Below are positions 7,847 through 48,073 of a stretch of 48,369 nt of DNA, in pieces; the stretch's first letter is position 1; each line of letters opens with the position of its first letter. Both the position numbers and the translations under genes were made by a program. Source of the DNA: Deltaproteobacteria bacterium (lineage in GTDB: Bacteria > Desulfobacterota > Syntrophobacteria > BM002); the NCBI GenBank assembly GCA_020347625.1, contig CP070735.1, forward strand, positions 667,129 to 715,497, in the 5' to 3' direction. The notes beneath the pieces are model-generated. The model was not told where the DNA came from. It worked only from the letters and a program-made list of their open reading frames with translations, and ran no database searches.

Positions 7847-10012
7847 ATGGTTCGAAGGAAAATTGGTCAGATTCTGGTTGAAGCCGGATTGATCACGGAA
7901 GAACAGCTGGTAGAGGCACTGGCAGAACAGAAAGAGACCAAGAAAAAACACCTGGGCAAACTGATCGTTGAGAAAGGCTGGGCCAAGCAGGAGGATATTT
8001 GCCAGGCCCTTTCCAAGCAGCTTAATATTCCCTACATCAAACTTAGCGAACTCGAAATCCCAAAAGATGTTGTGGAGACCATTACCCGAAAGCAAGCAAA
8101 CAGAAAACTCATCTTTCCTTACAGGAAAACGGGAAGACGTTTGCGTCTGGCCATGGCCAATCCGCTGGATTACAGCACCATTGATGAGGTCAAGTTCAGG
8201 ACAGGGCTGGATGTGTCCGTTGCAGTTGCCACCGAAGAGGATATCCGTGAGGCCATCGAGAATAACTACCCGGATGAATTTGACTTCGATTTATTTGCTA
8301 CGGTGGTACCCTCGGAAGAGGTGGAGGTGCTGGCGGAGGAGAGAGAAGAGAACGAATATGATGTTGATGAACTGATTCGGCAGTCCGAAATCGCCCCCAT
8401 CGTGCGGTTGACCAATGCCATTCTCGCCGATGCTATCAAGTTGGAGGCTAGCGATATCCACATCGAGCCTCAGGAAAGAGAGGTTGCGGTGCGCTACCGC
8501 ATCGACGGGATGATGAAGAATATTTTCAAGGTGGGTTTACCGGCGCTGGCTCCGCTGGTCTCCAGAATAAAAATTATCGGTGACATGGACATCGCTGTGA
8601 AGCGGCGTCCTCAAGACGGACGTACCAAACTCAAGGTTGGTAAGAAGCAATACGACATGAGAATATCTACCTTGCCCACCATTTTCGGTGAGAAGGTGGT
8701 CATTCGCATTCTTGACCAGTCCAAGGCATTCATTAGCTTGGACGAACTCGGCTTTAGTCCCGAAGATCTGACGACTTTCACCTCCACACTTTCTCGGCCG
8801 CAAGGCATCGTTCTAGTCACGGGACCAACAGGAGTCGGCAAAAGTACTACCCTTTACGCTGCTCTCAATCGTCTGAAGTCAGAGGTGATCAATATCGTCA
8901 CCGTGGAAGACCCGGTGGAGTATCAGTTGCCTGGAATCAACCAGGTCCAGGTGAATGAGCGAGCCGGCATAACCTTCGCCTCAGGTCTGCGCTCCATTTT
9001 GCGCCAGGATCCCAACGTGGTCATGGTCGGGGAGATACGCGATGCAGAAACTTCGAAGATAGCCTTCCAGGCAGCCAACACCGGGCACCTCGTGCTTTCC
9101 ACGCTTCACACCAACGATGCTTCATCGGCGGTTACCCGACTGGTAGACCTGGGCGTCGATCCTTATGTGATCGCTTCATCGCTGCTTATCGTTCTGGCGC
9201 AACGACTGGTAAGGAAAAACTGTCCCCATTGCCAGATGGTCGACGAGTTGGATGAAGCACTTCTTGCTCGCCTGGGATTATCCAAGAACAAGGATGACCA
9301 AAAGAAAATCAAGAAGGGTCAGGGCTGCGAGGCTTGTCAGTTTACCGGATACATTGGCCGGCTTGGGATTTACGAGATGATCATGGTGGATGATGACGTT
9401 CGCAAGCTGATCGTCAATGGGGCTTCAGATACGGAAATTGCGGAGAACGCCAAAAAACGTAAGGTTGGCGACCTCTTTGCCGATTGCCGAAAGAAGCTTC
9501 TCCAAGGAATCACCTCCGTCGAAGAGCTTATGCGGGTGGCGCCGCCCCCTGAACTGGACAAACGCCACATTGGTGTAGAGCCGAGTGCTGAACTGCCCCC
9601 GGTTGATAAACCCGTTGAGGTTCCGACAAAGCAGCTGCGGGTTCTGGCAGTGGACGATGACCCTTTCATTCGCAAGATGCTAGACAAGGTGCTGACTGAG
9701 GCCCAGTACGATGTGGTACTGGCAACGGATGGGGAAGAAGCCCTGGAAAAGGTCTATCGTGAGAGGCCCGATCTTATCATCTCGGACGTGGTAATGCCTA
9801 AACTTGACGGTCTGTCCCTGGTTAAAAAGCTGAAAGGTCAACTCCAGACCAGTATCATTCCAGTGATCCTTCTCACTTCGAAGGACGAGGTGGAGAGCGA
9901 GGTGGAGGGTCTGGAGGCGGGCGCTGATGACTACATTCCCAAACCCATTGTTGCCAATCTGCTGCTGGCCAGAATCAACCGGGTTCTATCCATCTACGGT
10001 CGGGCACAATAG
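7847..10012 (+). CDS. PilB/GspE-type secretion ATPase with C-terminal response-regulator receiver domain
   Basis: The 721-residue protein starts at ATG 7847 (AGAGG 6 nt upstream); an in-frame ATG 48 nt earlier lacks such a site. Domains: an MshEN-type N-domain with two repeats (IGQILVEAGLITEEQL and LGKLIVEKG) in the first 60 residues; the T2SSE motor with Walker A GPTGVGKST 326-334, an Asp box and a Walker B near EDPVEY/GEIRD; a zinc CxxC pair at Cys459/462 and 494/497; and a REC domain at 596-721 with Asp647, Thr in LLTS and Lys in IPKP. Family role: these hexameric cytoplasmic ATPases power type IV pilus extension or type II secretion. MshEN domains of some relatives bind c-di-GMP; here the motif Arg is Lys or His, so binding is uncertain. 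A C-terminal REC is not part of ordinary PilB. It heads the che operon. Confidence 0.93.
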   Translation: MVRRKIGQILVEAGLITEEQLVEALAEQKETKKKHLGKLIVEKGWAKQEDICQALSKQLNIPYIKLSELEIPKDVVETITRKQANRKLIFPYRKTGRRLRLAMANPLDYSTIDEVKFRTGLDVSVAVATEEDIREAIENNYPDEFDFDLFATVVPSEEVEVLAEEREENEYDVDELIRQSEIAPIVRLTNAILADAIKLEASDIHIEPQEREVAVRYRIDGMMKNIFKVGLPALAPLVSRIKIIGDMDIAVKRRPQDGRTKLKVGKKQYDMRISTLPTIFGEKVVIRILDQSKAFISLDELGFSPEDLTTFTSTLSRPQGIVLVTGPTGVGKSTTLYAALNRLKSEVINIVTVEDPVEYQLPGINQVQVNERAGITFASGLRSILRQDPNVVMVGEIRDAETSKIAFQAANTGHLVLSTLHTNDASSAVTRLVDLGVDPYVIASSLLIVLAQRLVRKNCPHCQMVDELDEALLARLGLSKNKDDQKKIKKGQGCEACQFTGYIGRLGIYEMIMVDDDVRKLIVNGASDTEIAENAKKRKVGDLFADCRKKLLQGITSVEELMRVAPPPELDKRHIGVEPSAELPPVDKPVEVPTKQLRVLAVDDDPFIRKMLDKVLTEAQYDVVLATDGEEALEKVYRERPDLIISDVVMPKLDGLSLVKKLKGQLQTSIIPVILLTSKDEVESEVEGLEAGADDYIPKPIVANLLLARINRVLSIYGRAQ

Positions 10013-10048: not shown

Positions 10049-10585
10049 ATGCCAGATTTCCCATCCGGACCAGGGAAAAAGATCCTTGAGCAGATTCGCC
10101 GGGCTCAGCAGAACCAACATGCCCCAGTAGCCAAAGATTCCCCTCAACAGCAGTATCTCAGCTTCCGCCTCAATGAGGAATGGTATGCCCTTAGCGTATA
10201 CCAGTTGGTGGAGGTTTTGCCTTTACCCAAGATCACTCGGGTTCCCAGTGTACCTGACCACATTCTGGGGGTCATGAATTTACGTGGCGAGGTGCTCTCC
10301 GCCATTGACTTAAAAAAAATCCTGGGCCTACCCCAAGAGACGCCGGCGGTGACCCCAAGCATTGTGGTGGTCGAAGAAGGTGGGGTGCGAACTGGATTGC
10401 TGGTGGACGATATTGGCGATCTGGTGGATTTGGGACTGGATGATTTGACAGAGGAGCCACTTTTGACAGGCAAAGCTCAGCCTGCTTTCTTTGAAGGGGC
10501 AGCGCATTGGGGTGGCATCCTTTTGAGTGTTATCAACCTGAGAGGACTGTTGCAGGCAGAGGGCATGTACTCGCCTCAGGGATGA
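10049..10585 (+). CDS. cheW: CheW chemotaxis coupling protein (first copy)
   Basis: CheW bridges receptors to CheA. The 178 residues comprise about 40 polar N-terminal residues, then one CheW beta-barrel domain (YLSFRLNEEWYALSV, then VPSVPDHILGVMNLRGEVLSAIDL, then LLVDDIGDLVDL). NLRGEVL with its conserved Gly is intact. It lies 36 bp after the PilB-REC stop and 3 bp before the second cheW, consistent with one operon. It is a full-length canonical CheW and probably the working adaptor for the MCP and CheA downstream. Confidence 0.95.
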   Translation: MPDFPSGPGKKILEQIRRAQQNQHAPVAKDSPQQQYLSFRLNEEWYALSVYQLVEVLPLPKITRVPSVPDHILGVMNLRGEVLSAIDLKKILGLPQETPAVTPSIVVVEEGGVRTGLLVDDIGDLVDLGLDDLTEEPLLTGKAQPAFFEGAAHWGGILLSVINLRGLLQAEGMYSPQG

Positions 10586-10588
10586 GCC

Positions 10589-11026
10589 ATGGAAAAGAGC
10601 AACAAGGTTGCCACCTTGGAAATTCTCACCTTCTGGGTGGGTCCTTTCCTGCTGGGTGTGGAGGCTGGTCAGATAGCCTCGTTGCCAGGACCTTTAAACC
10701 GTGAGCTCCCGACCCATGACGGCGAGGTAATCGATGAGTTGCCAATTTTGGATCTGCGGCCAGCATGCGGCCTACCTGAAGCGATGAATACGCAGCAGTG
10801 CCAGGTTCTGCTGGTCAATCGGGCTGGGGAGATGGTGGCCTATCTAGTTGACCAGGTGGCTGATCTCATCACGGTAGAGATTGGAGGGCAAATCTGGCCT
10901 CTTCCGCCATTACTCGACGTTCAGAAGCGATGGCAGCAGCTATGGGGGGTCTGCCAATGGAATGGCCAACTGGTCCTTTTGGTAGACCTTCAATACGAAT
11001 CCCTAAATACGCCAAAGGAGGGATAA
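10589..11026 (+). CDS. Divergent CheW-like protein (second copy)
   Basis: The 145 residues follow the first CheW stop by 3 nt; GGGATGAG lies just before the ATG. The CheW-domain pattern is recognisable but eroded: LEILTFWVGPFLLGVEAGQIASLPG at the start, a middle strand LLVNRAGEMVAYLVDQVADLIT, and VCQWNGQLVLLVDLQ at the end. The NLRG loop of canonical CheW is replaced. It may be a specialised adaptor or a modulator that competes with the first CheW in the array. The operon position supports a role in the same pathway; the exact role is not visible. Confidence 0.78.
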   Translation: MEKSNKVATLEILTFWVGPFLLGVEAGQIASLPGPLNRELPTHDGEVIDELPILDLRPACGLPEAMNTQQCQVLLVNRAGEMVAYLVDQVADLITVEIGGQIWPLPPLLDVQKRWQQLWGVCQWNGQLVLLVDLQYESLNTPKEG

Positions 11027-11033
11027 GTTTCCC

Positions 11034-13199
11034 ATGAATACCCTTAAGAAAAAGATCATTTGGAATCAGGTTTTGCTGTTTATCTGTTTTATCATTATCC
11101 TCGGACTGCCCTACCTCTGGCTTAGTTCAGACCTGGCAGCGAGTCAGGTTCGCCCCTTTCTCATTATATATGTTCTCAAAACATTCTTGCTCCTGGGCCT
11201 TTTTGTGCTCCTGCCAATCCAGTGGTCTCGGCCGCTGCTGTCACTAGAGCGTGGTGTTTCTACTGAGCGAGGGTTGGATTTCGATAGCGCAGCGGCCACG
11301 TTGCGGCTAAGCGGTGGATTGCCGGCCCGATTGGCGTTGGTTCTCTTTCTGGCCGGATACGGAATTTATCTGCTGTCCATCCTGGCCATGCGGTTCGCGG
11401 CACATTTCAGCTGGCCTCAGTGCCTGCAAGGGTTTCTCGTAGGTCTCGTCGTTTGTTTGATCTACTCCCTTTTCACCCTGTTCACCATGGAGGGAATTAT
11501 TCTCCCGGTGATGGCCGCAGCCATGAGTCGTCTACCCCAGCGGGTACCTCTGAAAGGAATAAGTCTCTCCCAAAAACTGTTGCTTACCTGCGGCTCGCTG
11601 GTCCTCATCGCGGTAGTTTTTGTGAGTTCAATCAGCTTTGTCGGGAGCAAGAAAGCGGTGCAAGGTCAGGCCATGGAAGTGCAGCGCATGCGGCTCGAGC
11701 TTGCGGTCAGCGGAGACAACTGGAAAGATCTGGTTGTAAACAGGAAAGCGGACGCGCTCCATGAGGCATTAGCAAGGCTTGAGCTTGGAGCGGGTACCTT
11801 GGCATATTTGACCACCAGCACCGGATTCCCGCTGGCCACTAGACCCCGCGGTTTGGAACCCGAGTTACCGGCCGGGTTGTTGAATGAATTCACCCAGGAC
11901 AGTTCAGGTACATATGCGGACAACCTGAGAGGCAAGATCTACACCTTTCAGAAGGTGGGAGATCCCAACGTGTTTCTTGTGAGCGAGGTGGATAGGAGTC
12001 AATTCTTCACGCCCTTGCGAAACATCGGTTGGACCAACAGTCTCGTCTGTTTGGTGACGCTTGTTATAGGTTTCTATCTTTCCTATATTCTGGCCTACAG
12101 TTTTACCAAGCCCATTAGCAAACTTGGAAGTTATGCCAGGCAGATTTCTGAGGGAGAAATCTCCGAGAAGATTACTCTGGCCTCCGGTGACGAGGTGGGG
12201 ATGCTAGCTGACGCCTTCGCCCACATGCACGAAAACTTCATCCAGTTGGCTGAGCAAGCTCAAAAAATTGCGGGTGGCCACTTTAGTCAGAGTGTAACTT
12301 TCCCTGGTCCCTTCGGCCAGGCCATCAATACGATGGTGACGAATTTGCGGGATATGACAGGACAAAGTCAGGCAGCGGCCTCAAGGATCGGTAGCTCTTC
12401 CAGTGAAATCGTAGCGGCAGCCCAGCAGCAGGCAAGCGGCGCGGCTCAGCAGGCCGCATCAGTAAGCGAGACCACCGCCACGATGGAGGAACTGAGTACA
12501 ACCGCTAGGCAGATCGCTGAGAATAGTAACGCCGTTACCGCGGTGGCTGAAGAGACGTTGAAAAGCGCAGAGGAAGGCCAGGATCTTATGGAAGAGAGCA
12601 CCAGCAGCATGACCCTGATCAGAAGTAAGACTGAGGAAAGTGCTGCAAAGATTCTGGACCTTGGGAAGAAGAGTCAGCAAATTGGCGAAATAATTGATAT
12701 TATTAACGAGATAGCCATTGAGACCAAGATGCTCTCCCTCAATGCTGCCATAGAGGCAGCCAAGGCAGGCGAGGCAGGCAAGGGCTTTTCTGTGGTCGCT
12801 GGAGAAATCAGACGTTTGGCCGAGGACGTGGTGAAATCCACCGGGACCATTCGAGACGTGCTTTTGGAGATCCAGTCGGCCGCGAGTGCTTCGGTTTTGG
12901 CTGCTGAGGAGAATGTCAAGGGTGTCGAAGAAGGCGCGGTTCGGTTGAACAGGGTGGGGGACGCCCTGGAGAATATCATTGCCATGGCCGAGCAGACAGC
13001 GGAGTCGGCGCGGCAGATCTCGGTGGCGACGAATCAGCAGAAAGAGGCGAGCGAACAGGTGGTGAACACCATGAGGGAAATTTCCAAAGTGGCACAGCAG
13101 ACAGCAGCCGCCTCCAAGAATGCCATCTCCTCGGCAAGTGACCTCAACCATCTGGCGGAGGAACTTCGATCACGGGTGAGTAAGTTTAAGGTTGAATAA
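11034..13199 (+). CDS. Methyl-accepting chemotaxis protein with six predicted TM segments
   Basis: The 721-residue receptor starts at ATG 11034 after AAGGAGG. Hydrophobic segments lie near 8-30, 40-62, 99-118, 133-160 and 181-204; an outside loop of about 125 residues (206-330) follows, then TM6 334-356, HAMP 357-410 and a long MCP signalling coiled coil to the end. The hairpin tip reads ETKMLSLNAAIEAAKAGE, so the usual QTNLLALN is altered. The four extra N-terminal TM segments are not in a standard two-TM MCP and could themselves sense a membrane or electron-transport state. No C-terminal CheR-tethering pentapeptide is seen. It presumably controls the CheA downstream, which begins 80 bp after its stop. 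Confidence 0.94.
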   Translation: MNTLKKKIIWNQVLLFICFIIILGLPYLWLSSDLAASQVRPFLIIYVLKTFLLLGLFVLLPIQWSRPLLSLERGVSTERGLDFDSAAATLRLSGGLPARLALVLFLAGYGIYLLSILAMRFAAHFSWPQCLQGFLVGLVVCLIYSLFTLFTMEGIILPVMAAAMSRLPQRVPLKGISLSQKLLLTCGSLVLIAVVFVSSISFVGSKKAVQGQAMEVQRMRLELAVSGDNWKDLVVNRKADALHEALARLELGAGTLAYLTTSTGFPLATRPRGLEPELPAGLLNEFTQDSSGTYADNLRGKIYTFQKVGDPNVFLVSEVDRSQFFTPLRNIGWTNSLVCLVTLVIGFYLSYILAYSFTKPISKLGSYARQISEGEISEKITLASGDEVGMLADAFAHMHENFIQLAEQAQKIAGGHFSQSVTFPGPFGQAINTMVTNLRDMTGQSQAAASRIGSSSSEIVAAAQQQASGAAQQAASVSETTATMEELSTTARQIAENSNAVTAVAEETLKSAEEGQDLMEESTSSMTLIRSKTEESAAKILDLGKKSQQIGEIIDIINEIAIETKMLSLNAAIEAAKAGEAGKGFSVVAGEIRRLAEDVVKSTGTIRDVLLEIQSAASASVLAAEENVKGVEEGAVRLNRVGDALENIIAMAEQTAESARQISVATNQQKEASEQVVNTMREISKVAQQTAAASKNAISSASDLNHLAEELRSRVSKFKVE

Positions 13200-13279: not shown

Positions 13280-15889
13280 ATGACAGAAGATACCGATCTA
13301 TTTCTAACACTGAAAGACGATTACCGGGAAGCCCTGGAGCAATTCAACGATGCCTTACTGCGACTGGAAAGCGACCCTGAAGATCGTGACTCTCTCGACC
13401 GGGCCAGTCGCCAACTCCATAATGTTAAAGGTTTTGCCAACCGGATGAGGGCACCGAAGCTAGGACAGCTGGCTCACATCTTTGAAGATGTCCTAGAGGC
13501 GATCAGTTTGGGCCGCTTTCAGTTCGACGAAACTCTTGCCAACCTCCTTTTCAAGGGGATAGATCTCTTCGTTCACTACCTTCGAAGCAGGGAAGTTCCA
13601 TCCGACAAAGTGGCTGAGCTGGTGGAGGAAATCGAGCCCCTGCTATTCACCACCATCGAGGCAGAGAGCGCCGCCACGGACATGGAACCGCTTCTCCCTG
13701 ATTTTATAGCTGCTGCCCGCGATAATGTGGAGGCTATAAACCGGGGATTGTCCAGTCTAGAAAAAGATCCCTCCAACAGCGAAATAATCCGGGAAGTATA
13801 CCGCAATGCTCACAGTCTAAAAGGTTCTGCTCTGACCATGGGATTCGAACGTATGGGCAAGCTGGCCCATTATATGGAGGATGTACTTCGAGCTATTCAG
13901 AAGGGGCAACTTCCTGTGACCCCGAAAGCTTGCGATGCACTTTTCGAGACCAACGACGCCCTCAGCGTGATGTTAGACACCCTTGCCGTCAGTAAGCGGA
14001 TGAAGGTGGACGCAGAAAGCAGTATGAAGCGGTTGGCCAGTTTATTACCTGACATTGAGCCTGAAGAAGAACCGAGGGTGGCGGAGCCTGTCAGGCCTGT
14101 CATTGAACCGAGCGAGGTGAGCGCGACTACTGTTCCGGCCGTTGATAGTGTCCGGGTGAGCACGGCTAGATTGGACGAGCTGATAAACCTTGCGGGTGAG
14201 GCGGCCATTGCCCAAATAAGGCTGGCCAGTGAAGTAGACAGTCTGATGCGCATCCGCGAGAGCTGGCAAAGATTGCGACTAAAGGAAAACTTCTCCCAGC
14301 ATTCGATTTTAGAAAGTGATGTTGGCTCGATCAACCAGTTCTTGGAACTAGGAGATTCCTTGGAGGAGACAAGCCGGAGGTTGCAAGAGGCCGCAGAAAA
14401 TACCAGCCGCCACATTGAGGCTCTACAACATCGGAGCATGGAGATTCGGATGCTGCCGCTGGCCCTCGTCTTCAACACTTTACCGAGAGCAGTGCGCGAT
14501 CTCAGCAGACAATTCGGCAAACAGGTGAGCTTTCGGGTGGAGGGGGAACGGACTACCATTGATAAAAGGATTCTTGAACAAATTGGTGATCCCCTCATTC
14601 ACTTACTACGCAACGCGCTGGACCACGGTATAGAGACGCCCGAGGTGCGGCGTCAATCGGGCAAGCCGGAAACGGCAATAATCCACTTGAAGGCAAGTCA
14701 AGAAGGCGGCAAGGTGCTTATCACCCTGACGGATGACGGCCAGGGAATCGATCACGAAAGACTAAAGGAGATTGCCATAGGCAAGGGTCTCATAGATGGC
14801 GACGAGGTAAAAGATTGGACGCAAGCTCAGCTCCTGGAACTTATCTTTTTGCCCGGATTCAGTACCAGTTCTTTGGTTACCGACGTTTCGGGACGCGGGG
14901 TGGGAATGGACGTCGTGCGCGCCAACGTGGAAAGACTCAAGGGTCAGGTGGAAGTCACCTCTGAATTGGGCAAAAAAACCAAGTTTGTCATATCTTTACC
15001 CGTTACTCTTGCCACTGTTCATGCCCTCATGATCCAATGCGCAGGCGAAATCCTTGCTATTCCTACTTTTTCAATAACCAAGACGCTCCAGGTCCCCATA
15101 CATGAGATCAGGCCCATACAGGGGCGGCAAGCCGTCGTCCATCAGGGAGAAATTCTTCCCATACGAAGTCTGGTCACCAGCCTCGGATGGGACGAAGAAA
15201 ACGGTGGCCCGCTGGCCGAAGGACGGGCCCTGGTTGTGGTCACCCAGGCCGGGGAGCGCAGAGTCGGTTTTCTCATCGATGATATCTTAGGGGAACGAGA
15301 GATCGTCATCAAGGACCTGGGAAGCCATCTGCGAAAAGTTAGCTGCGTGGCTGGTGCCACCATTCTTGGCTCTGGTGAGGTAGCGCTTATTCTGGATATA
15401 CCACAACTGCTTTGGCAGAAACCGGTTGAGGTTCGGCAAGAGTGGCCAGAGCAGTTGGAGGAAGAGGTTAGTCCGGACCGTAGCCACCTAATTCTAGTAG
15501 TGGAAGACCAGGTTGTGACCCGACAGATGGAAAAAAGCATATTGGAGGCGGCTGGCTTTAGAGTTGTCACTGCTGAGAATGGTCTGGATGCCTTAGAAAA
15601 ATTAAGGCAGCAGAGCTTTGATCTGGTGGTGACCGACATACTCATGCCCAAAATGGATGGATTCACACTCACCAAAGAAATTCGAGACAACGAAAGGACC
15701 AAAAATTTGCCGGTGGTTGTTGTAACCTCCATGGAGCGTGAAGCAGACAAACGGAGGGGGCTGGAAGTTGGCGCTGACGCCTATTTGGTCAAAAGCAGTT
15801 TTGATCAAAGACATCTAATTGATATCATTGGGAATTTACTTGGGAAGCGCAGGGTTAAGGGCCAGGGGACATCTGGCACTGGGAACTAA
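13280..15889 (+). CDS. cheA: Hybrid CheA histidine kinase with two Hpt domains and a C-terminal receiver
   Basis: The 869-residue kinase contains two Hpt domains, one around His47 (LHNVKG) and one around His178 (AHSLKG), then a dimerisation helix pair near 290-400, an HATPase domain (HLLRNALDHGIE, DDGQGID, GRGVGMDVV), a CheW-like P5 domain, and a REC domain with Asp786 (TDILMPKMDG). No P2 CheY-binding domain is evident. Hybrid CheAs of this type are typical of type IV pilus or other alternative chemosensory systems. The phosphate route could go His to the attached Asp and on, or to REC on the PilB fusion or CheB. The last residues and the stop codon lie inside a heptanucleotide array (from 15875), so the C-terminal tail is repeat-derived. 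Confidence 0.95.
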   Translation: MTEDTDLFLTLKDDYREALEQFNDALLRLESDPEDRDSLDRASRQLHNVKGFANRMRAPKLGQLAHIFEDVLEAISLGRFQFDETLANLLFKGIDLFVHYLRSREVPSDKVAELVEEIEPLLFTTIEAESAATDMEPLLPDFIAAARDNVEAINRGLSSLEKDPSNSEIIREVYRNAHSLKGSALTMGFERMGKLAHYMEDVLRAIQKGQLPVTPKACDALFETNDALSVMLDTLAVSKRMKVDAESSMKRLASLLPDIEPEEEPRVAEPVRPVIEPSEVSATTVPAVDSVRVSTARLDELINLAGEAAIAQIRLASEVDSLMRIRESWQRLRLKENFSQHSILESDVGSINQFLELGDSLEETSRRLQEAAENTSRHIEALQHRSMEIRMLPLALVFNTLPRAVRDLSRQFGKQVSFRVEGERTTIDKRILEQIGDPLIHLLRNALDHGIETPEVRRQSGKPETAIIHLKASQEGGKVLITLTDDGQGIDHERLKEIAIGKGLIDGDEVKDWTQAQLLELIFLPGFSTSSLVTDVSGRGVGMDVVRANVERLKGQVEVTSELGKKTKFVISLPVTLATVHALMIQCAGEILAIPTFSITKTLQVPIHEIRPIQGRQAVVHQGEILPIRSLVTSLGWDEENGGPLAEGRALVVVTQAGERRVGFLIDDILGEREIVIKDLGSHLRKVSCVAGATILGSGEVALILDIPQLLWQKPVEVRQEWPEQLEEEVSPDRSHLILVVEDQVVTRQMEKSILEAAGFRVVTAENGLDALEKLRQQSFDLVVTDILMPKMDGFTLTKEIRDNERTKNLPVVVVTSMEREADKRRGLEVGADAYLVKSSFDQRHLIDIIGNLLGKRRVKGQGTSGTGN

Positions 15890-16076: not shown

Positions 16077-17189
16077 ATGCCGACTGATCAAGAAAAGCTA
16101 ATGAGAGACAATAGCGAGATTCACGAGCCCATTCGCGTGCTCATCGTCGACGACGTGAAGAGCGCCCGTGATCTGCTCAGAGATATTCTTGCAACAGATC
16201 CCGGCTTTGAGGTGATTGGGGAAGTCGCTGACGGTTTGAAGGCAGTTGAGTCTGCCTTGCTGCTTCGGCCCAACCTCATAACCATGGACATCCGACTTCC
16301 CGGTCTCGATGGATTTCAAGCGGTGGAGCGAATCTTGGCAGAGGTACCGGTTCCCATCGTGATGATCACCGCATCCATGGGTAACCAGGAGGAAAAGCTC
16401 TTTCGCGCCTTTAACGCCGGCGCACTAGATGTACTTGACAAGCAGGAACTGTACCTCTGGAGGACGCGACCGGAGATTCGGAATGGCTTTTTACGCAAAC
16501 TACGAGCTCTGGCTCTCACCCGGGTGGGGCGAGGCTGGGTTCGCGGCTTACCAGAACCTGATCCTATAATCACTCACAGGCATCCACAAGTCGAAGCGGG
16601 AGCATCCCCTCTGGTCATAGCCATCGCAGCATCCACCGGTGGCCCTGGTGCCCTAATGAGGCTGTTCAAGCAGATTCCCAGCCAGGTGAATGGTTGTTTT
16701 CTTGTGGTACAACACATGAGTCGTGGATTCCTGGGAGGGCTAGTCCGCTGGCTTGATGACGAAGTGGGACTGGAGGTGCGGGAGGCAAGGGAAGATGATC
16801 CACTGTTGCCGGGTCTTGTATTGGTTGCCCCCGATGATTACCACATCCAGGTTACCGACTGGGGTACAGTGCGTCTCAATAAGTCCTTGCCCATAAATGG
16901 CCACCGGCCCTCAGCGGAATTACTTTTTGACTCGGTTGCCAACTGTTATGGCAAAAGAGGTGTGGGTATTATACTTACCGGTATGGGTTCAGACGGGGCG
17001 ACGGGACTGAAAACTCTCAAAGAGAGCGGGGGGCACACCATCGCCCAAGACGAGGAAACCAGCATCATTTTCGGCATGCCCCGAGCAGCCATTGAGAAGA
17101 ACGCAGCCGAGATGGTTCTCCCTTTGGAAAAAATCGGACTACAGATCCTAACATGGATATCTGAGCAACAGAGAGTGGAGATAGAATAG
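16077..17189 (+). CDS. cheB: CheB protein-glutamate methylesterase
   Basis: CheB removes methyl groups from MCP glutamates and deamidates glutamines; phosphorylation of its receiver by CheA activates it. The 370 residues have an N-terminal REC domain (VLIVDDVKSARDLL, phosphoacceptor Asp71 in TMDIRLPGLDG) and a C-terminal esterase domain with the catalytic triad Ser186 (AASTGGP), His213 (VVQHM) and Asp306 (GMGSDG). Start ATG 16077 is used; ATG 16101 is a possible later start, nine codons before the first REC strand. It is followed 69 bp later by cheR, so the adaptation pair is adjacent. Confidence 0.96.
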   Translation: MPTDQEKLMRDNSEIHEPIRVLIVDDVKSARDLLRDILATDPGFEVIGEVADGLKAVESALLLRPNLITMDIRLPGLDGFQAVERILAEVPVPIVMITASMGNQEEKLFRAFNAGALDVLDKQELYLWRTRPEIRNGFLRKLRALALTRVGRGWVRGLPEPDPIITHRHPQVEAGASPLVIAIAASTGGPGALMRLFKQIPSQVNGCFLVVQHMSRGFLGGLVRWLDDEVGLEVREAREDDPLLPGLVLVAPDDYHIQVTDWGTVRLNKSLPINGHRPSAELLFDSVANCYGKRGVGIILTGMGSDGATGLKTLKESGGHTIAQDEETSIIFGMPRAAIEKNAAEMVLPLEKIGLQILTWISEQQRVEIE

Positions 17190-17258: not shown

Positions 17259-18707
17259 TTGGAACTCAGCGAGCAAGAATATCACCACTTCCGTGATCTC
17301 ATAGCCGAGCGGGCTGGACTTTATTTTGACCCAGCGAAGCAAGATTTGCTCACGTCAAACCTGCTCAAGCGCATGGAAGATTGCGGCCTGAGCACATTTA
17401 CCGACTATTTTCAGCTTCTTTGTTCCCCAGCAGGGACCAAAGAATTCGATCATCTACTCAATCTGATCACCATCCCGGAAACCTACTTTTTCAGGGATCA
17501 GGCCCAGTTCATGGCCCTCAAGCGTTTCGTAATCCCCGAGCTGCTGAAAAGAAAATCTCATCCGGCATTACCACTGAGGATATGGAGTGCTGGCTGTTCC
17601 ACTGGTGAAGAGCCCTATACCATTGCTATGATCTTGGCGGAGGGAATACCAGGGGTAGTTTCCTCACCAACCCACATTTTGGCCACAGACGTGAATCACG
17701 CTGCCCTGGAGGGGGCGCGTCGGGGGATATATGGTGCTCGTTCCGTGCGTGATGTGCCAGAGGAATATCTCAACCGCTTTTTTACCCAAAAGGGTGGTGA
17801 ATATCACCTTGACGAATCCATCAAGCAGATGGTGGAATTTCGCCACTTCAATTTGGTATCTGAAAGTTATCCCCCCCTGGAAATTTCTGGATGGGACATC
17901 ATTTTCTGTCGCAATGTAACCATTTACTTCAAGCCAGAATCCACCAGGCGAGTTATCCATAACCTTTACAAGAGTTTGAAAGAGGGCGGATACTTATTTG
18001 CTGGATTTTCAGAGAGCCTGCGCTATGTCTCGAACGAATTCGACACAGTGCAGGTTGGCGGGGTTTTTCTCTACCAAAAGGGGGCGCCGCAAAAACGACA
18101 GCCGCGCAAAGCCCGGCAAACCAGGCGTCTGCGTCGCCTAACCAGTCCGCTTGAGCGAAAGCCACGCATACGGTCTGTCAGCGGCAAGGAGGCAAAGGAG
18201 ACGCAGAAACTCTGCTCCCGTGCCAAGGAGTTCCTGGAAATAGGCCAGCCTGAAAAAGCCAGTGAACTACTGACCCCTTATCTGGATAAATCGACGGCAC
18301 CCGAAAGCGTCTTTCTGTTGCTGGCAGAGATCGCCCTCAACCAGGGTGAACTTGAAAAGGCGGCGCAGCTATGCCGTAAGATTATTCGCCACCAACCACT
18401 TTCCCATGGCGGACATTTTTTGTTGGGGATCGTTTATTGGAGTTGGGAGGACGAGCGGAGGGCTATCGAAGCATTTGAGAAAGTACTGTCCCTGAAGCCA
18501 GAGCATGCCCTTGCACGCTTCAATCTGGGGGACCTCTATAGCCAGGCGGGTCAGCTTGCCAAGGCAAAACTTGAATACACCAACGCCATGCGATTATTAA
18601 AAGAAGTTCCTGACTCGTTTGATGAGTGGTTTGCTGGCGGCTTTTCTCCTGCTCTTCTCATCGATACCTGTCTCAGTCGACTCAGGACGCTGGATAGTGA
18701 GCAATAG
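17259..18707 (+). CDS. cheR: CheR MCP methyltransferase with C-terminal TPR repeats
   Basis: CheR methylates receptor glutamates with S-adenosylmethionine. The start is TTG 17259 with AAGAG 8 nt upstream. The N-terminal helical CheR domain (1-70) ends in TIPETYFFRD (71-80). The SAM fold has SAGCSTGEEPY at 110-120 and FCRNVTIYF, where the usual Leu is Thr. A basic linker (280-310) leads to about four TPR-like helix pairs (from about 317 to 460), which in other fused CheRs regulate activity or docking. At 482 residues it is longer than a plain CheR. It is the last gene of the chemosensory operon; two repeat arrays follow the stop. Confidence 0.95.
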   Translation: MELSEQEYHHFRDLIAERAGLYFDPAKQDLLTSNLLKRMEDCGLSTFTDYFQLLCSPAGTKEFDHLLNLITIPETYFFRDQAQFMALKRFVIPELLKRKSHPALPLRIWSAGCSTGEEPYTIAMILAEGIPGVVSSPTHILATDVNHAALEGARRGIYGARSVRDVPEEYLNRFFTQKGGEYHLDESIKQMVEFRHFNLVSESYPPLEISGWDIIFCRNVTIYFKPESTRRVIHNLYKSLKEGGYLFAGFSESLRYVSNEFDTVQVGGVFLYQKGAPQKRQPRKARQTRRLRRLTSPLERKPRIRSVSGKEAKETQKLCSRAKEFLEIGQPEKASELLTPYLDKSTAPESVFLLLAEIALNQGELEKAAQLCRKIIRHQPLSHGGHFLLGIVYWSWEDERRAIEAFEKVLSLKPEHALARFNLGDLYSQAGQLAKAKLEYTNAMRLLKEVPDSFDEWFAGGFSPALLIDTCLSRLRTLDSEQ

Positions 18708-44241: not shown

Positions 44242-44574
44242 ATGATGGCTAACGAAAAACGGCAACATCCACGAGCTGAAATCACATGGCCTGTCACTGT
44301 GATAACTCATAACGGCCCGGTGGATGGAAGAACCCAAAATATCAGCCGCGCTGGTACGCTGATCCGCTGTCCTGAAGTGCCCGACCTCGACGATAACTTC
44401 CGCCTGGTTTTCAAACCTGCTGGACGCCAAATGCTGTTAGCTACTGGCGAGATGATTTGGTCAGACATTCTTCTTGATGACAAATATGCCTTCTATGCAA
44501 TGGGTGTAAGATTTACATACGTTCCAGAGCATGACCAGCATGTTCTTGGCAAGGCGGTTTCAGAGCACACCTGA
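44242..44574 (+). CDS. PilZ-domain protein (first)
   Basis: 110 residues. The c-di-GMP motifs are both present: RQHPR (RxxxR) near residues 7-11 and NISRAG (D/NxSxxG) about 22 residues later. A single PilZ domain is all there is; it ends 20 residues after the last strand. Such proteins bind c-di-GMP and act as adaptors on motility, pilus or polysaccharide machinery. ATG 44242 or 44245 is possible. A second PilZ gene of similar size starts 244 bp downstream. Confidence 0.85.
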   Translation: MMANEKRQHPRAEITWPVTVITHNGPVDGRTQNISRAGTLIRCPEVPDLDDNFRLVFKPAGRQMLLATGEMIWSDILLDDKYAFYAMGVRFTYVPEHDQHVLGKAVSEHT

Positions 44575-44818: not shown

Positions 44819-45202
44819 ATGATCAGGAAACAGGCGCGCATATGCCCCAGAGCCGAACTCAAATGGCCTGTATCCGCACAGATTAGCGGTGGGCTCATGC
44901 ACGGAGAAACGAAAGATATCAGTCCTGCTGGGGCTTTTATTCGTTGTCGAAAGCCGTTGAAGCTGCACGAAGTATTCGACATGGTTATCAATGCTCCAGA
45001 AAAGCCTTTGAATGTGAAAGCTGAGGTAATCTGGTCGAATATCTATGGCTATGATGACGAAATAACCCCTCGTGGGATGGGGGTTCGCTTTGTAACAATT
45101 TCTGATGAAGACCAAAAACTTATCGCCCAAGAGCTGAACCAATACGACGTAGGAAAAGTGGCCTGCGAGTTTCTGGATACTTTGGAGACAGAATTGGCAT
45201 AA
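44819..45202 (+). CDS. PilZ-domain protein (second)
   Basis: 127 residues from ATG 44819 (GGGAGG upstream). RICPR (RxxxR) at 8-12 and DISPAG (DxSxxG) about 22 residues later satisfy the c-di-GMP motif. The core from ELKWPVSAQISGG to MGVRFVTIS is parallel to the first PilZ (EITWPVTVITHNG ... MGVRFTYVP), so the two are paralogues from a duplication. A C-terminal helix (DQKLIAQELNQYDVGKVACEFLDTL) is extra. The pair suggests fine-tuned responses to c-di-GMP. Confidence 0.86.
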   Translation: MIRKQARICPRAELKWPVSAQISGGLMHGETKDISPAGAFIRCRKPLKLHEVFDMVINAPEKPLNVKAEVIWSNIYGYDDEITPRGMGVRFVTISDEDQKLIAQELNQYDVGKVACEFLDTLETELA

Positions 45203-46296: not shown

Positions 46297-46445
46297 CCGC
46301 ACAGCGGGATCTTGGGCATTCCATTGTTCCATGTGGATGACACCACGCCCCTATGGGATGAACGCAAAGCCAGGGCCTGCCGTGCCGACTTGTCTCACCG
46401 AAGTTCCAACGTAGGTGGGTCCTCCGGGGTCGGATTTTTGCTGTG
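46297..46445 (+). ncRNA. Candidate structured leader upstream of the hybrid kinase
   Basis: A small CCCGC/GCGGG hairpin (about 46297) is followed by a CATTCCAT / ATGGGATG stem, then ACGCAAAGCCAGGGCCTG, which resembles the core of GEMM (c-di-GMP-I) riboswitches, and a CCGAC...GTCGG stem with ATTTTTG, terminator-like, about 70 nt before the kinase ATG. The GCAAACC half of the GEMM core is not present, so class membership is doubtful. Confidence 0.35.
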
Positions 46446-46513
46446 GTTTTTTTAATCAAGAATTAAAGGGTTGCCAAAAAGAATTATACAATAATAAGAA
46501 TAAGGATTTTAAT

Positions 46514-48073
46514 ATGATACGAATGGAAGATTGGAAGTTGCTATTAATAGATGAAGATGATGAAGTTCGACAGGCCTTGTCCGCTTTCTTAGAAGACGCT
46601 GGTTATCGTGTACTGACTATTGCGAATGGAGAAAGCGGTATCGAGTTATGTTGTGAAGGATCTTTTCAGATTATTATCACTGAGATTGACCTGCCAGGTA
46701 TTGACGGTATTGAGGTTTTGAAGTCCATAAAGAAGGCATATCCACATACTGAGGTGATTGTGACCAGCGCTTATAATGAAATCGAAAACGCATTGAAATC
46801 TTTCCGACTTGATGCTGCTGACTTTATTACTAAACCCATAAACGATGATACGCTTATGGCGGCACTGGAGCGAGCAAAGAAGCGCTACAACATCCAGAGA
46901 AAGCTGCAGGATTATACCGACTTTTTGGAAGAAAGGTGGATGGACACATCCGAGGAGCTGGCTAAGATTTTCAATTTTCAAGAAAGACTCATCGAAAGCT
47001 CGATTGACGGCATTATTGGGTGTGATTACGATAGGAAGATCATCATCTTTAACAACAGTATGGAACAAATGCTTGGTTATACTACAGATATGGTATGCGG
47101 AAAGATGTTTTTTTATCAACTATTTTCATCTCAGGAGTGGGAAAAGTTCCAGAATCAGTTGTATAGTGAAGAATTAGGTGGAGAGGATAAACTGTTTCTT
47201 TCTGAATCGACCCTAATTTCCAAGAAAGGGGAAAAGATTCCGGTGCGGCTTTCGGCACAGGTGCTTTTACAGGGAAGTGAAGAAATTGGTTTAGTAGCAT
47301 TTTTTCGTGACCTGCGAAAAGTCAAAAGGCTGAAACAACAGTTTCTGGATCAGGCTAATTATCTTCACCAGGACAAGATGATCTCTTTAGGAAAACTGGC
47401 TGCCAGTGTTGTTCATGAACTTAATAATCCCCTTACTGGTATTCTTAACTATATTCGGCTTATGATCAAAATTTTAGGCCGAGATTCTCTATCAACAGAA
47501 CACATACACAAGTTCCAGAGATATCTTGATCTCGTGGGGAGTGAAGTCAGCCGTTGTTCTGACATTGTCTCTAACCTACTCGCGTTTTCAAGAAAACCCA
47601 AGCTGGAATTCAGCGAAGTAAATACAAATGATCTCTTAGAGAAGAGCATACTGCTGAGCAAATACAAGCTAACCCTTCAGAATATTCAAATCAAAACGAA
47701 TCTGTATCCTAAGATTCCCGAGATATTAGGTGATTTTAATCAACTACAGCAATGTCTTCTCAATCTCATTTTCAATGCCGCTGATGCTATGCCGGATGGT
47801 GGAAGTCTCACCTTGGACAGTTCTTTTTTTCCGGACAAAGGTTTGGTTGAAATAAAAGTTACTGATACGGGTCGTGGCATTGCCAGAGAAGATCTCTCTA
47901 AGGTTTTTGATCCTTTTTTCAGCACGAAAAAGGAGGGTAAAGGTCTCGGTCTTGGCCTTTCCGTGGTTTACGCGATTATTGACCGACACAAAGGAACCAT
48001 CAGCGCAGAAAGTACGGTGGGCAAGGGAACTGTGTTTACTATAACACTGCCGGTTAGCGGGAAAGTTAGCTGA
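46514..48073 (+). CDS. REC-PAS-histidine kinase with Glu at the receiver phosphoacceptor site
   Basis: ATG 46514 (AAGGAT upstream) gives 519 residues. Order: N-terminal REC (1-125) with acidic DEDD (13-16), Thr and Lys (FITKP) intact, but Glu57 at the position of the phosphorylated Asp (the DxxMP motif reads E-I-D-L-P); PAS domain (about 155-265); HisKA with His301 in VVHELNNPL; HATPase with N-box LNLIFNAADAMPDGG, DTGRGI and GLGLGLSVVY. Without a Asp acceptor the receiver may be locked in an active-like state, or regulated by non-phospho means. No cognate separate regulator is adjacent. Two PilZ genes are upstream. Confidence 0.92.
   Translation: MIRMEDWKLLLIDEDDEVRQALSAFLEDAGYRVLTIANGESGIELCCEGSFQIIITEIDLPGIDGIEVLKSIKKAYPHTEVIVTSAYNEIENALKSFRLDAADFITKPINDDTLMAALERAKKRYNIQRKLQDYTDFLEERWMDTSEELAKIFNFQERLIESSIDGIIGCDYDRKIIIFNNSMEQMLGYTTDMVCGKMFFYQLFSSQEWEKFQNQLYSEELGGEDKLFLSESTLISKKGEKIPVRLSAQVLLQGSEEIGLVAFFRDLRKVKRLKQQFLDQANYLHQDKMISLGKLAASVVHELNNPLTGILNYIRLMIKILGRDSLSTEHIHKFQRYLDLVGSEVSRCSDIVSNLLAFSRKPKLEFSEVNTNDLLEKSILLSKYKLTLQNIQIKTNLYPKIPEILGDFNQLQQCLLNLIFNAADAMPDGGSLTLDSSFFPDKGLVEIKVTDTGRGIAREDLSKVFDPFFSTKKEGKGLGLGLSVVYAIIDRHKGTISAESTVGKGTVFTITLPVSGKVS

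Follow-up and report, generated by a model that had tools for sequence, protein, structure and literature searches.

A PilB-family motor ATPase fused to a receiver domain heads a chemosensory gene cluster and is a candidate for direct phosphorylation by CheA

We describe a gene for a pilus-type motor ATPase fused to a receiver (REC) domain, hereafter PilB-REC, and the chemosensory (che) gene cluster that it heads. Both lie in a 48,369-nucleotide window, the whole stretch analysed, of the genome of a Deltaproteobacteria bacterium of the phylum Desulfobacterota (assembly GCA_020347625.1, contig CP070735.1, positions 667,129 to 715,497). We propose, with a probability of roughly 60%, that the CheA kinase of the cluster directly phosphorylates the REC domain of the motor at Asp647, and that the phosphorylated REC, tethered to the motor, alters how the hexamer assembles, hydrolyses ATP or docks. 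The sensing system would then probably act on the motor directly, without a separate messenger protein. Direct transfer from CheA to the motor is the best reading because a single chemosensory system and no FlhA were found in the genome, because PilB-REC and the che genes are linked and co-occur, and because REC is the most constrained domain of the protein. A direct switch of this kind had been suggested in the initial annotation of the window, and we retain it as the best-supported proposal. The fusion protein and its parts are as follows.

7847..10012, + strand: PilB-family ATPase plus receiver (MshEN, T2SSE, disordered linker, REC with Asp647); a single-frame open reading frame of 721 amino acids with Pfam matches
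9536..9637, + strand: variable linker between motor and REC, residues 564-597, recognised by omega (ratio of nonsynonymous to synonymous substitution rates) and by a predicted local distance difference test score (pLDDT) <50 at residues 571-594
9638..10009, + strand: C-terminal REC, residues 598-721, phosphorylation site intact (PF00072; conserved residues; lowest omega in the protein)

As first annotated, MshEN, T2SSE and REC are encoded in one frame. Pfam places MshEN at residues 59-144 (E=4e-20), a PilB-type T2SSE domain at residues 180-563 (E=5e-138) and Response_reg (PF00072) at residues 599-710 (E=3e-29). The catalytic and phosphoacceptor residues claimed for the protein are likewise all present. 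The REC active site is complete, with the acidic pair D603/D604, the phosphoacceptor D647, T677, Y696 and K699, and the motor keeps the Walker A K332, E354, E396 and H421 together with all four zinc-type cysteines (C459/C462/C494/C497). In an AlphaFold2 model (mean pLDDT 84), MshEN, T2SSE and REC are confidently predicted, residues 571-594 are disordered, and the strands and helices of REC alternate as in a (beta-alpha)5-type receiver. The modelled motor matches the solved PilB cores 5tsg, 5tsh and 5oiu of Geobacter and Thermus (best-chain TM-score to target, 0.92-0.95) and is 48% identical to the Geobacter PilB cores. Among the solved relatives listed by the fold search, none spans both motor and REC.

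Chance or an assembly accident does not account for the fusion, because full-length orthologues that are 76-84% identical, REC included, occur in at least eight other genomes, representing most genomes of the family. The named records among them are metagenome-assembled genomes (MAGs) labelled Desulfobacterota, Deltaproteobacteria, Desulfobacteraceae or Syntrophobacterales. We rejected a frameshift or assembly fusion since independent assemblies from several genera hold the same full-length protein. Furthermore, the active sites of both REC and motor are invariant in 13 orthologues drawn from the family and its sister clade. Pairwise omega was lowest for REC (0.034), followed by T2SSE (0.065), MshEN (0.109) and the linker (0.354); these ratios are rough since dS exceeds 1, and amino-acid identity ranks the domains identically. 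A decayed REC was rejected on the grounds that REC is the most constrained domain of PilB-REC.

Downstream of PilB-REC, the cluster comprises six genes.

10049..10585, + strand: CheW 1 (PF01584, E=6e-32)
10589..11026, + strand: CheW 2, divergent (PF01584, E=1.6e-10); absent from sister genus g2
11034..13199, + strand: methyl-accepting chemoreceptor (MCP) with a membrane N-terminus, HAMP and signalling domain (Pfam)
13280..15889, + strand: CheA with two histidine phosphotransfer (Hpt) domains (H47, H178), kinase core, CheW-like domain and C-terminal REC (Pfam)
16077..17189, + strand: CheB methylesterase with N-terminal REC (Pfam)
17259..18707, + strand: CheR methyltransferase with C-terminal tetratricopeptide repeats (TPRs) (Pfam)

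All six lie on the same strand in the order originally given, cheW, cheW, mcp, cheA, cheB and cheR, and the intergenic gaps from PilB-REC through CheR are, in order, 36, 3, 7, 80, 187 and 69 bp. Pfam matched no sensor domain in the membrane-rich N-terminus of the MCP, about 335 residues long. The accompanying statement that the operon has no cheY needs qualification: Pfam annotation of the cluster genes revealed no free-standing CheY or REC and no single-domain regulator of the PilG/PilH type, but CheA carries a C-terminal REC and CheB an N-terminal one, and the lack of cheY therefore does not make the motor the sole bearer of a receiver. CheR-TPR proteins mark pathways for alternative cellular functions (ACF) with multidomain response regulators (PMC3447774). 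Given TPR repeats in CheR and PilB-REC as a multidomain response regulator, the sensory array is predicted to be of the ACF type, and the lack of PilG/PilH-type regulators among the cluster genes would place it outside the type IV pilus (Tfp, Pil-Chp) class.

The association of PilB-REC with these genes extends across the family. The order PilB-REC-cheW-cheW-mcp-cheA-cheB-cheR is complete at three loci (L041, L043 and L044) and is kept up to the contig ends at three others (L039, L040 and L046). Sister genus g2 (G010) has lost one cheW (CheW2), has only a cheR remnant after cheA and carries cheB at 3.6 Mb; its PilB-REC, cheW, mcp and cheA are still contiguous. CheW-domain genes and PilB-REC are both present in 11 of the 13 family genomes (PilB-REC as a fragment in G006), and both are missing from the remaining two, G003 (79% complete) and G011 (96% complete). 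The G008 contig stops after mcp, and a search for CheA in that genome found none. We set aside G006 as a counter-example: CheA lies 244 kb from its PilB-REC fragment, but PilB-REC ends there at residue 159 and the MCP starts at residue 499, which looks like a mis-joined assembly.

The source genome is a single contig of 3.22 Mb with an estimated completeness of 87.5%. Its three CheW-domain matches all fall inside the window cluster, which is therefore the only chemosensory system found. FlhA, the flagellar export gate, was not found in the genome, and hence no flagellar target was found for the array.

We suggest that the membrane receptor and the CheW proteins would set the activity of CheA, and that CheA phosphorylated on an Hpt domain (H47 or H178) would pass its phosphate to Asp647 of the motor-tethered REC. 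Phospho-REC would in turn alter hexamer assembly, ATPase activity or docking at the base of a pilus or type II secretion system (T2SS). CheA's own REC would probably tune or drain phosphate, CheB and CheR would provide receptor adaptation, and c-di-GMP, acting on MshEN, may supply a further signal. Because the tether is flexible and the REC is PhoP/PleD-like, switching by dimerisation or docking would be a better fit than a rigid allosteric interface. Architecture, intact active sites, linkage, co-occurrence and constraint are observed; that CheA donates the phosphate, which way the motor responds and what platform it serves are inferences.

Several observations weigh against direct transfer from CheA. 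The initial annotation had overlooked the REC of CheA itself, a canonical PilB without REC, small RECs encoded in trans, and fusions that lack che neighbours, and it did not mention the REC of CheB or the TPRs of CheR. Among 395 surveyed genomes of the phylum, fused homologues turned up in other families (L164-L169; 47-50% identity over the whole protein), and in a tree of the ATPase domain these six fusions and the family studied here form one clade (99/97) made of two well-supported sisters. None of the six adjoins che genes, so that some other kinase must serve REC there. Moreover, G141, G344, G073 and G041, all of which encode fused homologues, gave REC-level matches only and no CheA core match, which means that their receivers must use other kinases, if any. 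Since the sister clade has no che neighbours and these four genomes have no CheA core match, the fusion predates or is independent of che linkage. Two of the six sister-clade genes directly follow a REC-GGDEF gene, and hybrid kinases are encoded near others. Furthermore, the REC of the window protein is closer to PhoP/PleD-type receivers than to CheY, and elsewhere in the source genome about 19 open frames, none longer than 175 amino acids, contain a REC, making a CheY in trans possible. All of this would suit an arrangement in which at least one histidine kinase, ordinary or hybrid, phosphorylates the motor REC, CheA signals via a CheY encoded elsewhere, and adjacency reflects a shared surface behaviour. 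However, in this family PilB-REC is linked to CheA and shares its pattern of presence and absence, and the cluster encodes no free-standing REC; we thus regard this arrangement as unlikely. The linkage comparison itself offers few independent points, all from one family and four genera.

The REC of CheA could also be where phosphate finally arrives or where control is exerted, a role suggested for kinases of the FrzE type, with PilB-REC serving as a phosphate sink or localisation tag and its ATPase unaffected. CheA-REC retains its Asp in all orthologues, and both ChpA and FrzE carry an in-cis REC, which in ChpA is essential for twitching (PMC12632253). Over the same six genomes, however, CheA-REC evolves faster than the PilB-REC receiver (identity 0.75 vs 0.89), the g2 genome has Ala at its switch-Thr position, and a sink would not need fusion to a motor. 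These differences make a terminal role for CheA-REC improbable, and we continue to favour transfer from CheA to the motor.

The source genome holds five PilB/GspE-type ATPases and two PilT-type genes. One paralogue, at 316 kb with pilC next to it, is a canonical PilB without REC that passes the cut-off of the NCBIfam PilB model TIGR02538 (805.6 bits). The window protein (P0001) scores 620.1 bits against this model, still its best-matching motor model, and is set apart from PilB sensu stricto as it falls below the curated cut-off of 675.65. Nor does it have pilC or other pilus genes as neighbours: T2SSF genes occur at 318, 1081 and 2740 kb, none of them near the window (667-715 kb). Because a canonical REC-less PilB sits beside pilC at 316 kb, because the window protein scores under the cut-off and because no T2SSF gene is nearby, it is an accessory PilB-type motor. 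No T2SSE gene lies near the T2SSF genes at 1081 and 2740 kb, so that some orphan ATPase must serve them, and the window ATPase is a candidate. Other PilB-like paralogues of this genome (G000) are found at 2779-2799 kb (L176) and 2892-2912 kb (L174); one is extended by about 200 residues at its N-terminus, and another has a GAF-HD-GYP gene upstream of it.

The presence of the canonical PilB, together with the sub-threshold score of PilB-REC, would also suit a reading of PilB-REC as a PilB-derived signalling protein rather than a motor, reporting the state of the motor or of c-di-GMP to the array. PilB of Myxococcus xanthus is known to act in signalling (PMC5544727). Yet the catalytic and zinc residues are all conserved, omega for T2SSE is low, and the model fits the solved PilB cores closely, all of which argues for a working motor and renders a purely signalling role very improbable.

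Fusions of this kind are not confined to the source genome. We rejected that idea in view of the 13-member clade across the phylum and of the fusions found in other groups: T2SSE-REC proteins with intact sites also occur in Rokubacteria, Elusimicrobia and other Deltaproteobacteria, with nearly intact sites in Acidobacteria. From these sequences, motor-receiver fusions look recurrent, and the tree leaves the number of their origins unsettled. PilB-like ATPases of Gemmatimonadota (L069, L071 and L099) and of an unclassified MAG (L105) have a C-terminal REC-like domain without the phosphorylation residues; in Gemmatimonadota it was not counted as a working receiver. Two actinobacterial matches proved to be separate genes. 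In Stutzerimonas stutzeri, an ATPase of the same family (L078:9965-12214) has the reverse order, with REC at the N-terminus.

The initial annotation had further raised c-di-GMP input through MshEN and pointed to PilZ genes in the same window. MshEN proteins that bind c-di-GMP are recognised by two RLGxx[LVI][LVI]xxG[LVI][LVI]x4Lx3LxxQ motifs. In the window protein the first half keeps 9/11 key positions and the second, weaker half 7/11, Lys and His standing where the motif has Arg; c-di-GMP input is therefore plausible but uncertain, as the motif is imperfect. The PilZ genes are real, but they lie 34 kb away from PilB-REC.

44242..44574, + strand: PilZ domain protein, possible c-di-GMP adaptor with a putative tie to the motor (PF07238, E=1.8e-12)
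44819..45202, + strand: second PilZ domain protein (PF07238, E=5.9e-14)

A REC-PAS-histidine kinase gene, a possible alternative kinase, is located a little way downstream of both (window 46415-48073). At L167:238-3358 and L168:3976-7323, in two further families of the phylum, a REC-GGDEF diguanylate cyclase gene precedes PilB-REC with a gap of 3-11 bp, an arrangement in which a producer of c-di-GMP adjoins a motor bearing MshEN. Taken to its full extent, our proposal would be that the array controls a pilus-type hexameric ATPase through phosphorylation of the motor protein, that c-di-GMP acts on the same chain as a further input, that no diffusible CheY takes part and that one protein merges the roles of PilG and PilB; for this larger picture we would put the chances slightly below even.

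The fusion bears on how the response regulators of Pil-Chp systems reach the extension ATPase. A natural fusion found beside CheA in one family, and in other settings in the sister clade, suggests that receiver-motor contact can be the functional step, and PilB-REC offers a single polypeptide in which to study it. If our proposal is true, the list of ACF output domains in PMC3447774 would gain a motor ATPase.

Compared with known systems, the cluster resembles Pil-Chp of Pseudomonas aeruginosa (PilJ, ChpA, and PilG/PilH acting on PilB) in having a multi-Hpt CheA-type kinase with its own REC, two CheW proteins, one receptor, CheB and CheR, with a type IV pilus extension ATPase as the expected target. 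In P. aeruginosa, however, the phospho-signal travels through the separate CheY-like proteins PilG and PilH, whereas the window cluster shows no pilG/pilH-like gene, joins REC and ATPase in one chain and encodes a CheR with TPRs. PilG affects the localisation of PilB, and contact between the two is not reported (PMC11656802, PMC12632253). With ACF pathways that use CheR-TPR proteins (Wsp, Frz and others), the cluster shares CheR-TPR, a multidomain response regulator and the lack of a detected flagellar target; it differs in its output domain, as T2SSE/PilB is missing from those listed for ACF (PMC3447774). PilB-REC has the MshEN and T2SSE domains and the catalytic and zinc residues of PilB/MshE extension ATPases (PilB of Geobacter and Myxococcus, PilF of Thermus, MshE of Vibrio), but adds a REC and scores under the NCBIfam PilB cut-off. 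The PilB-REC proteins of other families (L164-L169) have the same architecture but no che neighbours. The association of MshEN with REC in some proteins is mentioned as a general remark in PMC5013675, and our literature search, which did not cover the supplementary tables of that paper, recognised no paper describing PilB fused to REC among those listed. We file PilB-REC as a variant on two counts, as an output of ACF-type chemosensory systems and as a PilB-family motor, new as far as the literature search shows.
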